A stretch of 64,000 nucleotides of DNA, taken from NCBI GenBank assembly GCA_029260715.1, contig JAJDCS010000028.1, positions 1 to 64,000 on the forward strand. The letters run 5' to 3'. A program made the translations under genes and the position numbers. The first letter of the stretch is position 1; every line of letters starts with the position of its first letter. This DNA is from Phycisphaeraceae bacterium (GTDB taxonomy: Bacteria; Planctomycetota; Phycisphaerae; Phycisphaerales; Phycisphaeraceae). The notes below the pieces were generated by a model. It worked only from the letters and a program-made list of their open reading frames with translations, was not told the DNA's origin and ran no database searches. Shown here piece by piece: positions 2,501 through 41,329 of the stretch.

Positions 2501-3955
2501 TCAGCGGGGTAGGCTCGGCATCGTGTCGGGCATTTGACTGTACCCCTTCAACTTCATCGCGGCCGCTTGCCCCTGGCGGGCGTAGTCAATCGCTTCGCCA
2601 AGGATCCGTGCCGCTTCCTGTGGAGCGTGGAACCCCATCGAATTTTCCGCTGCGATAAAGTCGAGTCGCCACTGGGCTTTGCGTTGGAGTTCGAGGGCTT
2701 CGCGCAGCTGCGGGCCCGTGGCCCCGGCTTGTTTAGCGTTTTGGATCGCGTCTAGTTGATCCATCAACGCCTGCCCGGCGCGTTGGGTGAGGTTAAAGTT
2801 GCGTTCTTGGATCGCGTCTACGCGCGCCAGGAGTTCTTTTTCCTCGACGTGGTGACAAGTCTGGCAGGCGCGGTTGACATTGAGCAGCGGGCTCCGCACC
2901 CAGTGGTCAGAAACCTTCGTGGCGCCGTCACGCTGATAAGGCATGTGGCAATCCGCACAAGACACGCCAGCCCGAGAATGAATCCCCTGCGACCACAACT
3001 CAAACTCCGGGTGCTGTGCCTTTAGAATCTCAGCGCCGGTTTCGCCGTGTTTGTAGTCGTAGAACCGAGCCCCATCCGGCAGGACCGTTTCGTTCCAGTG
3101 TGATTCTAGGTCCTCAACGCGGAGGCCTTGACTCCAGGGGAATTCGAGCGGCATCGCGCTGGAACAGTAGTATTCCACGTGGCACTGAGCGCAGACGAAC
3201 GAACGCATCTCCGTGCGGGAAGCCAGATTGTTGGGGTCGTAAGGCTCTTTTGAATTGGAGTCTCGCCACCGCTCGATCGAGGGCATTTGCGGCAGCGGAG
3301 CGTCGGATTTGGCCAGAGACTGGATCGCCTTGATGAAGCCCGGGCGCGTGACGCGTAACGTCATCGTCTGCGGGTCGTGACAGTCGACACAGGACACCGC
3401 GTGGGCGTGCCCCGATTCGTGCAGCATGGCGTTCAATTCTTGATATGACATCTGGTGGGTCTTCTCGAACCCAGCCATCGCGTCGCCTTCCCCTAGCTCC
3501 CGGTACAGGGGCATGACCGAAGCGTGGCAGTGCAGGCACGAGCCCGACTGAGGCTTGGTTAGCCGTTGCGTGGCTTCTTGGTCTTGGAGCATGTAGGCGT
3601 GGCCGCGGCGGTCCCTGTAATCAATGCTAAAGGCATAGCCCAGGAACATCCGCTTAAGCCACGGGTCGCGCTCGATCTTCGCTTCAGGCAGCGCTTCACT
3701 GCCGCCGTGGCCCCCAAACCGGGTGCGCGTTGACAAAGCGGTCAACCGGTAAGACTCGAACTGTTTGGGCCAATTGACGCCCCATTTCTCCGGGTCCGTG
3801 TCGTCTTCGGTCACTTCCACCAGGCGTAGGTAAGGGTTTTTCCCTTCCATCTTGCGTTCGAAAATATTCATCAATAGGGCGGTGACCAAAGCACTGGCCA
3901 CCGCGACGACCAGGACGACCGCGCCATAACCTACGGGTTTCTTAATTGTTGTCAT
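2501..3955 (-). CDS. nrfA: Ammonia-forming cytochrome c552 nitrite reductase NrfA (CxxCH type)
   Basis: Periplasmic pentahaem nitrite reductase that reduces nitrite to ammonium with six electrons. Five haem c motifs are visible: CLHCH (140-144), CVDCH (189-193), CAQCH (255-259), CADCH (333-337) and CQTCH (364-368). [12 protein letters not shown] and [11 protein letters not shown] are typical NrfA surroundings of haems 3 and 4 and contribute the active-site Tyr and His. The first, active-site haem has CxxCH, not the CxxCK of the E. coli enzyme, a variant known from other NrfA proteins such as Campylobacter. The N-terminus carries one hydrophobic segment (about 10-30), which may be an uncleaved signal or an anchor. 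The gene overlaps the 3' end of nrfH by 14 bp, so translational coupling is likely. Confidence 0.95.
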
Positions 3956-4517
3956 GATGTTTCAACTCCCGGCTAATCTTTTCAAAATCAACGGCTTCAA
4001 ACTTGCCAAGCCCCACCGTCTCGCCGTGCCCCACGGATCGGTGGCAGTGCACGCAATCGATCTCGCCCATTTCCGTTGTCGATGGGATCAAGGCTTGATG
4101 CATCAGATCGGCGTGGCAACGGATACAATTATGATGCAGTATTCGTTGGTTGCGTTCCCGGATAAAGATCGGTTCGTGAAAGTCTTGAAAGGTGAATGCT
4201 TTGGAGTGCAGGTAACCGTTCTCGGCTTTGGCCAGCCATTTGGGGACGAAGTCATGCGGCAGGTGGCAATCCACGCAAGTAGCCGTCGTGTGGTGGCTCG
4301 CCTTCTGCCAGGAATCGTATTGAGGCTGCATGATGTGGCAGTTGACGCACGCCGCGGGGTCTTTGCTGAAATAAGACAGGCCTTCGCCGTAATGGAATGT
4401 AAAACTTCCTAGCCCGAGTAGCGCCCCGCACATGGCGGCGATGATCAACCCGCCCATTGTCATTCCCAATGGGACAACCGGCAAGGCGGGTAAATAGGCT
4501 CTTAATTTGCCTAACAC
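3942..4517 (-). CDS. nrfH: Cytochrome c nitrite reductase small subunit NrfH
   Basis: Membrane-anchored tetrahaem quinol dehydrogenase of the NapC/NirT family that passes electrons from menaquinol to NrfA. One hydrophobic helix ([17 protein letters not shown]) is followed by four CxxCH motifs in order: CVNCH with the family-typical [14 protein letters not shown], then CVDCH, CIRCH and CVHCH. The open frame runs up to 4715, but its first part overlaps a palindromic repeat and has no resemblance to NrfH. A GTG at 4517 gives a normal short cytoplasmic head before the helix (about 191 residues). An ATG at 4463 would leave almost no head. The start is therefore uncertain, the identity is not. The gene is followed by overlapping nrfA. 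Confidence 0.92.
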
Positions 4518-36676: not shown

Positions 36677-37351
36677 ATGACAGCAGGGAAGTTCTTAAAG
36701 GGATGGGCGGTTGGTGCAAGTGTTGTTGTAGTGTTTGGTGTCGGCAACGCCCAAGCCCTAACGCTGGCACCAGCTAGCAGCGGTGATTTTTCAGGAGCTG
36801 CTTCTGTGGCGACATTTAGCACAGGGTTCTTCGGCGCATCATATTCCGAAGCAGGGGCTACATTCTTCGAAGAAGACGGTATCGATATCTTCATTGATAT
36901 TGTAGATCAGAATCTAAATACCTTTGACTTTGGTATCCCAGCTGATACGACACCTATCTTAATTGTTGAATTTGATACGCCTGTGAACCTGGTAGGATTC
37001 GACTGGATCAATGGGGCAATGAATCTGACGATCGATGCATTTGTTGGCAAAGACGGATCGGGCTTAACCGATCAACTTATTCTGCCAGCACCAGCCAGCT
37101 CCGTTCCTACCCCTTCTTTTCTCGCTTTTAAATCAACCGATGGGATGAGCTTTCAGCGTATCAGAATAACGATGGAAGATACTCAAGGCACTGCTTTCAT
37201 AGACGACTTCCGTTTTGAGGCAGGGTCGACCGACACTAACACCGGCGGCGCGGTCCCCGAACCCACCACGGCGGTGCTGGGGCTTGCCGGGTTGGGGGCC
37301 TTGGGGCTTCTGGTGGTCCGGTCGAGAAAATACAGCCGCCACGCGGCGTAA
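36677..37351 (+). CDS. PEP-CTERM sorting domain protein
   Basis: Exported protein of 224 residues with a signal peptide (GWAVGASVVVVFGVGNAQA, cleavage near residue 27) and a C-terminal VPEPTTAVLGLAGLGALGLL helix followed by VRSRKYSRHAA, the exosortase sorting signal. The middle is beta-rich, with segments such as ILIVEFDTPVNLVGFDW and FQRIRITMED, resembling jelly-roll domains common in such proteins. Function is unknown. Its AT-richer codon use in the first half contrasts with the GC-rich 3' end encoding the sorting tail. Confidence 0.88.
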   Translation: MTAGKFLKGWAVGASVVVVFGVGNAQALTLAPASSGDFSGAASVATFSTGFFGASYSEAGATFFEEDGIDIFIDIVDQNLNTFDFGIPADTTPILIVEFDTPVNLVGFDWINGAMNLTIDAFVGKDGSGLTDQLILPAPASSVPTPSFLAFKSTDGMSFQRIRITMEDTQGTAFIDDFRFEAGSTDTNTGGAVPEPTTAVLGLAGLGALGLLVVRSRKYSRHAA

Positions 37352-37451: not shown

Positions 37452-39038
37452 GTGCCTGTCCCGACAGGAGCGATCGACTCGCACCCGGCGAAGTCGATCG
37501 CCTTGGGCGGTTGGTACGGGCGGTGGGCGTGGGCGTTGTCGCTGCTGTTCTTGGCAGTCGGCTCATTTGGCCTGGGGTTATTCAACGGGGCGTTAGGTGA
37601 CGATCAACTGCTGCTGTCACAGCGGCTCGCTGGGGTAGACGGTTTCGCGGGCTTGTGGGGGCTGTTCACACAGAGCTATTGGGGTCCGTTGCACACGGGT
37701 GGGCTGTACCGCCCGGTCATGCTTTGGCTGCTGGGCGCCCAGCGGCTGTGTTTCGGCACGGACCCCGTCGGGTTTCACGCGGTGAGCCTGCTGCTGCACG
37801 CGGGCGTCAGCGTGTTGTGCTTCGGGCTGTTGCGCCGGTTCCTGCCCAAGCCCGCGGCGTTTATGGGCGCTGCGGTGTTCGCCTGTCACCCGATCCACGC
37901 CGAGGCCGTCATCACGGTCTACGGGCAGGCCGACCTGTGGGCAGCGCTGTTCATGCTCGTCAGCCTGGACCGGTACGCCGCGTGGCTGCACAAACCGCTG
38001 TCGCCCACGCAACGGCTCGTCATCTACGGGGCGTACCTGCTGAGCTTGGGGTGTAAAGAGTCGGCGGTGCTGGGGCCCACGGCGATGGTCTTGATCAGGG
38101 GGCTTTATGTCTCACCCGACGCCCGCGGTTGGCGTCGGTGGGTGTCGGGCCGTGAGGCGGGGTTTGCCGTGCCGCTGGCGATCTACTTAGTGGCGCGGTT
38201 CGCGGTGTTAGGCACTCGGGCTGCGCCGGTGGGCGAGGGGTCGGTGGCGTGGGGGTATCCGCTGTGGGCCAGGGCCAACCTTGTCATTGTAACGATCGGG
38301 ACGTACCTGCGGCTGCTTGTGCTGCCGTGGGGCCAAACGATCTATTACGGACACCTGCGCGACGCGATTTTCGGTCAGCCTTGGGCGCAGTTGCTGTGGC
38401 TATTGGGCGGTGTGGCGGGGTTGCTTGGCTTGGGCAGGTGGCTGGACAGGCGCGTCGTGGCTCAGGGGAACGGCTGGCTGGTATGGGGGCTGTTGCCCGT
38501 GGCGAACCTGCTGCCGATCGGTGTGGTCGTGGCGGAGCGGTGCCTCTACCTGCCGAGCATAGGGGTGGCGTTTCTGGTGGGCGGCGCGTTTGACCGGGCA
38601 CGGTCGGGCACGAAAAATTCGTTGTGGGTTATGGCGGCGATCGCCCTGGTGTTGGCCGCTTCGGTTGGACTGTCCGCCCGGACGTGCTGGCGGTGGCGCA
38701 CGCCGGTGAGCCACTGGCGCGCGACCGCGGCCGACCACCCGCGATCCCCCAAAGCCCACGCGACGCTGGGGATCGCTTTGCTCGACGAAATGGTCCAAGG
38801 CGGCGAGGTGCTCTACCCCAGCAACCCGCGGTGGGTCGAAGCCCAGCGAGCCATGGAGCGCGCCATCGAGCTAAACCCACAATCCCCCGACGCTTGGAAG
38901 GGCAAGGGGTTGCTGGCGATGTCGCGGGGCGAATACCGCGAAGCGATCCCCTATTTTGAGCGGGCGTATTCGCTAAGACCCAGCGACCAAAACACCTACA
39001 ACTATCTTTTGCGGTGTCGCGAAGCGGTCGAGCATTAG
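37452..39038 (+). CDS. GT-C family membrane glycosyltransferase with C-terminal TPRs
   Basis: A 528-residue protein with about ten hydrophobic helices followed by about 130 soluble residues. The architecture and the segments HPIHAEAVITVYGQADLWAA and GCKESAVLGP are characteristic of TMTC-like (protein O-mannosyltransferase related) proteins. An early GDDQLLL, in the place of the catalytic D(D/E) of GT-C enzymes, lies in the first extracytoplasmic loop. Tetratricopeptide repeats are visible near the end (AMERAIELNPQSPDAW and YREAIPYFERAYSLRPSD). It probably transfers a polyprenyl-linked sugar to exported proteins or glycans. The start is a GTG. Confidence 0.8.
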   Translation: MPVPTGAIDSHPAKSIALGGWYGRWAWALSLLFLAVGSFGLGLFNGALGDDQLLLSQRLAGVDGFAGLWGLFTQSYWGPLHTGGLYRPVMLWLLGAQRLCFGTDPVGFHAVSLLLHAGVSVLCFGLLRRFLPKPAAFMGAAVFACHPIHAEAVITVYGQADLWAALFMLVSLDRYAAWLHKPLSPTQRLVIYGAYLLSLGCKESAVLGPTAMVLIRGLYVSPDARGWRRWVSGREAGFAVPLAIYLVARFAVLGTRAAPVGEGSVAWGYPLWARANLVIVTIGTYLRLLVLPWGQTIYYGHLRDAIFGQPWAQLLWLLGGVAGLLGLGRWLDRRVVAQGNGWLVWGLLPVANLLPIGVVVAERCLYLPSIGVAFLVGGAFDRARSGTKNSLWVMAAIALVLAASVGLSARTCWRWRTPVSHWRATAADHPRSPKAHATLGIALLDEMVQGGEVLYPSNPRWVEAQRAMERAIELNPQSPDAWKGKGLLAMSRGEYREAIPYFERAYSLRPSDQNTYNYLLRCREAVEH

Positions 39039-39112: not shown

Positions 39113-39140
39113 TTGTATGAAATTAACCAAAGAGTAAAAT
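39113..39140 (+). promoter_or_regulatory. Promoter of the RNA candidate
   Basis: TTGTAT (39113-39118) and TAAAAT (39135-39140) are 16 bases apart in AT-rich DNA. Transcription would start near 39148, directly before the GC-rich folded segment. Confidence 0.5.
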
Positions 39141-39147
39141 GGTGTAT

Positions 39148-39353
39148 GTGTCAGGGCAGAGGCAGAGAGGTCTTCGGGGGAAGAGGACCCCTGGAGCGGG
39201 AGCAAAGAACCCTCCGCGAGGGGTAGGAAACGGAGCACGGAACGCGGGGCCAATTGTCGGGCCCAGTTACGAGGGCGTTCCGGGAGAACCGCCGACCGCG
39301 TAAGGCCGAGTGGTCACCACGACCCAACCGACCTTGTCCGGTCGGTTTTCTTA
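39148..39353 (+). ncRNA. Candidate structured non-coding RNA of about 205 nt
   Basis: Between a promoter and a perfect terminator lies a non-coding segment with several strong helices. GGTCTTC (39169-39175) pairs with GAGGACC (39183-39189). CCCCT pairs with AGGGG, or CCCTC with GAGGG, around 39187-39223. CGGAACGC (39238-39245) pairs with GCGTTCCG (39275-39282), with GGGCC/GGCCC (39246-39263) stacked inside. GTGGT pairs with ACCAC (39311-39321). It shows none of the conserved cores of RNase P, tmRNA or the SRP RNA that I can recognise. A divergent 6S-like RNA or a lineage-specific RNA is possible. The strand is fixed by the promoter and terminator. Confidence 0.6.
39325..39353 (+). terminator. 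Rho-independent terminator of the RNA candidate
   Basis: AACCGACC (39326-39333) pairs with GGTCGGTT (39340-39347) around TTGTCC, and TTTTCTT follows. No protein gene ends just upstream, so it most likely ends the RNA candidate. Confidence 0.85.
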
Positions 39354-39503
39354 AAGGCAAACCATTTCAAACGCTGATGCCGATGGCCCCTCTCTTTTAA
39401 TCAGGGTCGATCTTCGATACGATACCCAGGCTTGATGACCAGCATCATTCACTTCGTCCGATGGCGCGCACAGGCCCGCCCAGTAGCAGAAAGATTTACG
39501 TGT

Positions 39504-40538
39504 ATGCGTTTTTCTCGATTTCTTAGTGTTGCGGTATTGCTTTTGGTCTGCGTCGGAGCGGCGCGGGGCGGCGACTTCAGCGACGAACCGGTGGGCGCCC
39601 GAATCACGCTGGCCAAAGAGCGGATTTTGATCTTCACCGACGCGATCGCTCGGCAGGCCTCGGCGGCTTACCCGTACTCCTCGGCGACGAACCCGGCGTC
39701 GGACGATTTTGTGCGTACCCCCCCCGCCGACTACAAGGGCTATGTCCTGCCGATCACCAGCGACATCTTCTTCGACAACGGGACGACGGTCGCCGGCGTG
39801 GCGGGCATCGCCTCGGTCCGCCTGCCTGAAGCGGGGAGCATCAAAGGGGCGTTCGTTCGGCTGGACTCTCACGACGGGCGCAGCCGACAGGGCGATGAAT
39901 TCATCTTAAGGTCAAACGAAGTCCTGCTCAGCTACAGCCGGCAATTCGGACCAAAGTTCGCCGTCGGAGGCAAGCTACGGCTGACGGACGCGACGCTTGT
40001 GATCCGCGACACCTTCGCCGGCTCGCCACGCCACACCGAGAGCAATACCAACGGGGTGGGGTTCGACGCGGGCATGATCGTCGCCGCGAGCCCCCGCCTC
40101 ACGCTGGGCATCCATGGCGGGTTGAAGTGGGACAAGACCAACACGGAGGGCTCCATCAGCACCGGCCCGCCCGTGTTGTTGGGGCTTAAGGACACGGCCC
40201 AGCTTTCCGAGGTGCGCGCGGGCCTGGGCTGGAAGGCCTCCGACCAACTGAGCATCTACACCGACTTGCAGTACGTCCACATGGAAAACGACTTCGGCAC
40301 CACGGAAGTCGGCAGGCTGTCCGTTGGCGGGGAATTTTTCGCGACGCCTGTGCTGGCGCTGCGCCTGGGCGGCGTGGTGGACACGCTGCCGCAAGTCGGC
40401 GTGGCTGCGGGGCTGGGCTACTACGGCATCAAAGGCGCGACGGTAGAGCTAGCCTACGCGTACAACACTTTCCCGGAGGTGCGGCGTGAATTCGGGCGGG
40501 CGCACCTGATCAGTTTTTCATACGTGCTGCTGTTTTAG
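39504..40538 (+). CDS. Outer-membrane beta-barrel protein
   Basis: A protein of about 344 residues. The signal peptide (FLSVAVLLLVCVGAARG) starts at the ATG at 39504; an upstream in-frame start lacks support. The mature part shows alternating amphipathic strands (for example NEVLLSYSRQFGPKFAVGGKLR, LTLGIHGGLKWD and LSIYTDLQYVHME) and ends in ISFSYVLLF, the C-terminal aromatic signature read by the BAM complex. It may be a porin, a transporter or a structural protein; the specific family is not recognised. A terminator hairpin shared with the convergent msrB follows. Confidence 0.75.
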   Translation: MRFSRFLSVAVLLLVCVGAARGGDFSDEPVGARITLAKERILIFTDAIARQASAAYPYSSATNPASDDFVRTPPADYKGYVLPITSDIFFDNGTTVAGVAGIASVRLPEAGSIKGAFVRLDSHDGRSRQGDEFILRSNEVLLSYSRQFGPKFAVGGKLRLTDATLVIRDTFAGSPRHTESNTNGVGFDAGMIVAASPRLTLGIHGGLKWDKTNTEGSISTGPPVLLGLKDTAQLSEVRAGLGWKASDQLSIYTDLQYVHMENDFGTTEVGRLSVGGEFFATPVLALRLGGVVDTLPQVGVAAGLGYYGIKGATVELAYAYNTFPEVRREFGRAHLISFSYVLLF

Positions 40539-40576: not shown

Positions 40577-40604
40577 ACACCGCCCTTCGGCGCGGTGTTT
40601 ATTC
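40577..40604. terminator. Bidirectional terminator between the barrel gene and msrB
   Basis: ACACCGC (40577-40583) and GCGGTGT (40592-40598) form a stem with a CCTTCGGC-containing loop, followed by TTATT on the plus strand. On the minus strand it starts right after the msrB stop codon. Confidence 0.6.
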
Positions 40605-41183
40605 CGTGTCGCCGGTGCCACCAGGTTTGAAATCCAGTGAAGCGGAGTTGATGCAGTACCGAAGGCCGGTGGGCGCCGGGCCGTCGTTGAAGATATGCCC
40701 CAGGTGCCCGCCACACCGCCGGCACAGCACCTCGGTGCGTGTCATGCCGTGGGTGGTATCGGTTTTGGTCACCACGCGGTCGTCGTCAGCGGGCGACCAG
40801 TAGCTCGGCCACCCCGTGCCCGAGTCGAACTTCTCATCGGACTTAAACAGCTCAAGGCCGCACCCGGCACAGCGGTAAACCCCGTGGCCTTTGTGGTCGT
40901 GGTATTCGCCTGTGAACGCACGCTCGGTGCCCTTCTCCCGCAGCACGTGGTACTGCATCGGTGTGAGAGACTCTCGCCACTGCTGGTCGGTTTTGTTGAC
41001 GGGTTGGCTCATGTCTGTGTCGCTGGTTTGGGTTTGTATAATCGGTTTTGCCGGTGGGTCGGGCCGCCGCTCCGCTTCGCTGCAAGCGCCCAGCAAGGCC
41101 CCCAGCAGCACATAGACCGTCGGCCACACCCATATCACGCTACGCTCGTTATAGAACAATCTGTCACACACACGCGTGGTCAT
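40599..41183 (-). CDS. msrB: Peptide methionine-R-sulfoxide reductase MsrB, lipoprotein form
   Basis: Enzyme reducing methionine-R-sulfoxide in damaged proteins. Family features are complete: YRCAGCGLELF and LCRRCGGHLGHIF (the zinc cysteines), SGTGWPSYW, and the catalytic RYCINSASLDF. The start at 41183 gives a head of about 30 residues ending in VLLGALLGAC, a lipobox, so the enzyme is probably anchored outside the cytoplasm. A shorter cytoplasmic form beginning at the MSQPVNKTD methionine cannot be excluded. A periplasmic MsrB fits the exported metabolism around it. Convergent with the barrel gene. Confidence 0.92.
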   Translation of the reverse strand: MTTRVCDRLFYNERSVIWVWPTVYVLLGALLGACSEAERRPDPPAKPIIQTQTSDTDMSQPVNKTDQQWRESLTPMQYHVLREKGTERAFTGEYHDHKGHGVYRCAGCGLELFKSDEKFDSGTGWPSYWSPADDDRVVTKTDTTHGMTRTEVLCRRCGGHLGHIFNDGPAPTGLRYCINSASLDFKPGGTGDTE

Positions 41184-41240
41184 ATCTATATATAACAATT
41201 CAGACGCTTGAGAAATTCCATGTCCGCCGCCGCGACGGCC

Positions 41241-41269
41241 TTGATCGCCTGCGCATAATAGCATATAGT
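41241..41269 (+). promoter_or_regulatory. Sigma-70-type promoter of the lipoprotein gene
   Basis: TTGATC (41241-41246) and TATAGT (41264-41269) are separated by exactly 17 bases and lie about 60 bases before the lipoprotein start codon. Confidence 0.6.
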
Positions 41270-41329
41270 AACTAATCTTAGGCACTCTTGTTCGCACTTC
41301 AAGTTTTTCAGTATAAGGAGAGAGGCGTC

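Follow-up and report, generated by a model that had tools for sequence, protein, structure and literature searches.

What is encoded by the non-coding gap at positions 39148-39353 of the window, the stretch of 64,000 nucleotides of Phycisphaeraceae DNA analyzed here? The segment has a membrane gene on one side and a barrel gene on the other. A first-pass annotation, made from the letters alone, had described it as a possible new structured RNA with its own promoter and terminator, belonging to none of the standard bacterial RNAs and containing no protein-like reading frame. The flanking genes are located as follows:

37452-39038, + strand: membrane gene with C-terminal TPR repeats.
39432-40538, + strand: barrel gene; the ATG near 39504 is the probable true start.

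The gap between the two genes was indeed found to lack a protein-like frame: its frames resemble GC-rich chance frames, and a protein-coding reading is not supported. For the sister type of the RNA such a reading is not supported either, since the gaps in its alignment are non-triplet and the changes keep the pairing. Elsewhere in the neighborhood, a gene directly 5′ of the TPR-repeat membrane gene (36677-37351, + strand) encodes a protein whose C terminus carries a PEP-CTERM sorting signal (Pfam PF07589), and positions 40599-41297 on the - strand encode an MsrB-type methionine sulfoxide reductase, recognized by its SelR domain (E 1e-52) and preceded by a long extension at the N terminus.

The single-sequence statistics of the segment are no better than chance. 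Its minimum free energy is -80.3, compared with -81.4 ± 5.2 for shuffled sequences (z 0.22), and 110 of 200 shuffles fold equally well. The 5′ two thirds show the following features:

39148-39290, + strand: lineage-specific 5′ region with several GC-rich hairpins, predicted by single-sequence folding.
39238-39245 (CGGAACGC) with 39275-39282 (GCGTTCCG), + strand: helix within the 5′ region, predicted by single-sequence folding.
39247-39251 (GGGCC) with 39260-39264 (GGCCC), + strand: helix inside the preceding one, predicted in the same way.

The complementary strands of the strong helices proposed earlier are thus present, but the folding energy does not go beyond that of the shuffles; as modeled, both helices are plausible. 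What lifts the RNA above chance are homologous copies with covariation, which lay outside the view of the first-pass annotation. Judged by sequence comparison, the segment is almost certainly a real structured non-coding RNA and not a chance fold, and one that would have been dismissed on folding energy alone.

A blastn search of 60 relatives gave a single match, covering the last 64 bases with 80% identity (E 2e-8), in G008, which shares the family but not the genus of the source and in which the neighboring genes differ from those in the window. A covariance model (R1) built from these two copies only was searched against 400 genomes of the order and returned five further genomes of the second genus (the sister genus) as well as G041 (4e-9), a genome from another family of the same order, none of which had been part of the training set. 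The records of the sister genus are the Phycisphaeraceae MAGs OFTM29, OFTM326, OFTM355, OFTM374, and OFTM41 and Planctomycetota bacterium Dive100_bin3.48. A further model (R2), built from eight copies and applied with lax filters to 40 genomes, added five copies, each absent from its building set: a second and a third one in G008, a second one each in G035 and G136, and one in G016, which represents a further genus. The E values were 4.5e-11, 5.5e-10, and 9.8e-8 for the copies of a type named B below, 5.9e-10 for the further G008 copy and 1.4e-5 for G016; over all iterated models, the E values per genome lie between 1e-5 and 1e-21. A sequence profile from which the window copy and the one most closely related to it had been left out still recovers the window copy at 2e-12 in 64 kb.

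In total, the 3′ domain is represented by 13 copies in nine genomes, 12 of them outside the window and spread over eight further genomes of the order, which represent three more genera and two families. G008 carries three copies, and G035 and G136 carry two each. The distribution is patchy, as most other genomes of the family have no convincing copy. When the scans were extended over the order, class, and phylum, no additional convincing member emerged among the best dozen candidates scored per genome, and divergent members may be missed because of this scoring. Weak model hits in G024, G793, G080, G101, and G140 turned out on inspection to be ordinary terminators or chance. The single-motif pattern GTAARGCCGAGTGG, searched with one mismatch in 201 genomes, produced almost exclusively chance matches. 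Pattern hits in other phyla and in viral contigs had no convincing fold match, and phage and plasmid collections contained no match to the window RNA. Conservation, the absence of which had been named as grounds against the RNA, is therefore present for the 3′ domain, but no homologue of the first ~140 nt (the 5′ two thirds) was found in the searches of relatives.

The conserved part comprises the last ~62 nt of the window RNA (39291-39352) and is built from the following elements:

39291-39298, + strand: 5′ strand of P1, GCCGACCG, pairing with 39339-39346; covariation in 13 copies.
Window RNA, between P1 and P2: 3 x 3 internal loop.
39302-39308, + strand: 5′ strand of P2, AAGGCCG, pairing with 39329-39335; one recurrent C·A mismatch.
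39309-39311, + strand: 5′ side of the conserved internal loop, AGU; AGU in 10 of 13 copies (alignment A6).
39312-39324, + strand: P3 hairpin, GGUC-ACCAC-GACC; length variable among copies (alignments A3 and A6).
39325-39328, + strand: 3′ side of the conserved internal loop, CAAC; CCAACCG in 12 of 13 copies.
39329-39335, + strand: 3′ strand of P2, CGACCUU; covariation in 13 copies.
39339-39346, + strand: 3′ strand of P1, CGGUCGGU; covariation in 13 copies.
39347-39353, + strand: T-rich tract after P1, an intrinsic-terminator-like 3′ end by sequence.

The unconstrained minimum-energy fold of the window 3′ domain is the same P1-P2-P3 structure. AGU and CAAC form a nearly invariant 3 x 4 internal loop. 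Every copy has 15 nt on the strand leading from P1 to P3 and, with one exception, 16 nt on the return strand, whereas P3 differs widely in length. Covariation, which had been suggested as a check, was found at 12 of the 22 pairs of P1-P2-P3 as two-sided changes among the 13 copies, the innermost P3 pairs being uncertain in G041 and three type B copies, where the P3 inserts were shortened by hand in the alignment. Compensated cells number 40 against 16.6 ± 2.8 after shuffling, and 89% of the cells are paired against 27-50% with the partner strand slid (13 copies each). P2 shows two-sided exchanges at four of its seven pairs; in the G016 copy a compensatory A-U replaces a G-C pair. Compensatory changes were already found in the first eight copies.

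An ordinary intrinsic terminator next to a GC-rich gap structured by chance would account for a folding energy that is not below that of shuffles and for weak hits outside the family that are plain terminators. This explanation is extremely unlikely, as the unpaired AGU/CAAC and the strand lengths are conserved across lineages, and P2 and P3 hold compensatory changes which would be superfluous for a terminator. The terminator proposed earlier is a shorter structure:

39327-39333 (ACCGACC) with 39340-39346 (GGTCGGT), followed by TTTCTT: 7-bp terminator hairpin of the first-pass annotation.

Both the hairpin and the T-rich end exist in the window. The hairpin and P1 compete for one 3′ strand; since the former is not kept in the copies of a type named A below, where P1 extends to 10 bp, the conserved partner is the long P1 and not the 7-bp hairpin. 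On comparison of the copies, the short terminator fits better into a larger domain, of which 39291-39298 and 39339-39346 form the closing helix. Since the 7-bp hairpin forms poorly in type A, the idea that it alternates with P1 in a conserved switch was rejected. Most copies have a T tract, which is weak in type B.

Upstream of the 3′ domain, the RNAs differ by lineage. Type A occurs in the six genomes of the sister genus and is ~155 nt long. Its 5′ part is a three-helix head with two-sided changes at 10 of 28 pairs (shuffled mean 4.0), and an invariant, C-rich stretch of 13 nt (GGAACCCGCCCUC) lies in and beside one of the head loops. Type B was found in three genomes, is ~200-330 nt long and has a 5′ part unlike that of type A, with a strongly conserved 5′ hairpin (GGCCGACC..GAUGACCGGCC) and a strongly conserved stretch CGACCGGAACGGGCC. 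Its flanking genes are a divergent pdxJ-like gene on one side and a hemerythrin-like gene on the other, both named by eye from their translations. The type B copies and a further stand-alone copy are:

G136 C171, about 3820-4130, + strand: type B copy L167.
G035 C99, about 1080-1385, + strand: type B copy L196.
G008 C16, about 4100-4310, - strand: type B copy L197.
G016 C155, about 1970-2200, - strand: stand-alone copy L198, with TTGACA-16-TATGGT upstream.

The copies in G016 and G041, the second copy of G008 and the window RNA each have their own distinct 5′ region. The hexamer CGGAAC (39238-39243 in the window) occurs in the variable part of five of the six RNA lineages, which is reached by 1 of 300 shuffles. 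It could be a second shared element, but it was spotted after the fact and serves as a lead only.

A promoter had also been proposed for the window RNA:

39113-39140, + strand: candidate promoter deduced from the sequence, with TTGTAT (39113-39118), a 16-base spacer and TAAAAT (39135-39140).

The hexamers and their spacing are present as described, but the -35 box matches the consensus at only three of six positions, and a consensus scan of the window called neither this promoter nor the 7-bp terminator hairpin. The type A copies show a conserved CTTGTaT block, followed ~17 bases on by a TA---T box. This -35-like block (ACTTGTATTTTGA) is their best-conserved upstream stretch, with 78.6% compared with 42-56% further upstream. 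An own promoter is thus plausible for the window RNA, with a weak -35 box.

The genes adjacent to the RNA copies differ between lineages, and no protein gene shared beside them was found. Varied neighbors and orientations and several copies per genome are as expected for the free-standing gene of a trans-encoded small RNA. An association with a conserved downstream gene, as for riboswitches and leaders, was not found across the RNA family; it is seen for type B in one genus only. A cis role, as leader or attenuator of the gene that follows, i.e., the barrel gene in the window or the hemerythrin-like gene for type B, would fit the same-direction gene starts ~70-150 nt downstream in the window and in G041 and the constant place of type B just 5′ of the hemerythrin-like gene in the sister genus. 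It is nevertheless improbable, given that downstream genes are unrelated between lineages, that the next gene is convergent at the second G008 copy and that a T tract precedes the gene in most copies. Because the neighbors differ, the next gene can lie in convergent orientation and three genomes hold two to three copies, the RNA is probably trans-acting rather than a leader. On balance, we favor reading it as a free-standing, trans-acting, modular structured RNA of ~200 nt.

The RNA consists of the conserved 3′ domain joined to 5′ regions that vary by lineage. The 3′ domain would end transcription and might bind a common partner, either a protein or another RNA, via the nearly invariant internal loop, and the exchangeable 5′ region would carry the specificity. 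In type A, the sister type with the best support, the head presents the invariant loop GGAACCCGCCCUC, whose C-rich sequence would suit G-rich mRNA sites, e.g., ribosome-binding regions. Pairing with mRNA is a possible mode of action, although it falls somewhat short of being probable. More tentative still is the proposal of a new modular RNA class with a shared 3′ handle, a tertiary-contact-like loop, exchangeable 5′ heads and a putative partner protein.

Conservation is concentrated in the structured 3′ domain, whose internal loop is nearly invariant, and the 5′ regions vary freely. This would also suit a ribonucleoprotein RNA with a 3′ domain bound by a dedicated protein and a 5′ region that serves as structure, without mRNA pairing. 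Such a role is rather unlikely: a housekeeping RNA would hardly show a patchy spread with two to three copies in some genomes, Rfam contains no matching family, and 6S RNA is present elsewhere in the genome. The same spread and copy numbers could point to an RNA that serves a mobile or defense element as guide or template, but no common protein gene was found beside the copies and the window RNA had no counterpart in the phage and plasmid collections, which makes this very unlikely. Compared with both, the trans-acting modular RNA remains the preferred reading.

For Planctomycetes, Verrucomicrobia, and Chlamydiae combined, 8 distinct annotated sRNAs have been counted (2022 review, PMC9029176). 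Few small RNAs are catalogued for this group, to which an RNA family with support from sequence comparison is now added. Several RNA types with one 3′ domain and differing 5′ parts furthermore constitute a natural experiment on partner binding versus specificity.

Finally, the RNA was compared with known systems. The covariance models of Rfam 15, including those for SRP RNA, RNase P RNA, and tmRNA, gave no meaningful match in the window, whether the gathering or a permissive cut-off was applied. Neither the homologues of the window RNA nor the type B copies matched Rfam, and ARAGORN found no tRNA or tmRNA in the window. A 6S identity was rejected, since RF00013 has no match in the window and a separate 6S RNA is located at C13:136452-136631 (L064; 63.8 bits against RF00013, above the family cut-off). 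The first-pass annotation was therefore right to recognize neither 6S nor another standard RNA, and its suggestion of a new structured RNA is borne out by independent homologues with compensatory changes and the lack of an Rfam match. New means here that it is neither in Rfam nor in the literature searched, in which the Rhodopirellula-1 motif is known from a listing. This motif is a candidate structured RNA from Planctomycetes and Proteobacteria, tabulated without an Rfam accession (Weinberg et al., 2010, PMC2864571). The likeness to it, as far as the listing shows, consists in being a candidate structured RNA in Planctomycetes.

With 6S RNA (RF00013) and Ms1, the new RNA shares a similar length, the free-standing gene and a T-rich end. 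However, these two are one long rod with a central bubble, whereas the new RNA has a 5′ head and a closed 3′ domain. 6S and Ms1 bind RNA polymerase, and Y RNAs bind Ro. The 11-nt GAAA-tetraloop receptor is an internal loop of the sequence UAUGG/CCUAAG. The new RNA (AGUGG/CCCAAC) resembles it in the 3 x 4 internal loop and the adjacent A's, but the two are not identical in sequence and type A showed no conserved GNRA loop, which leaves a resemblance only. Trans-encoded bacterial sRNAs with intrinsic terminators and C-rich seed loops are known. The stand-alone gene, the terminator-like 3′ end and, in type A, the exposed C-rich loop are shared with them, and the new RNA differs by its large conserved 3′ domain with the internal-loop signature.
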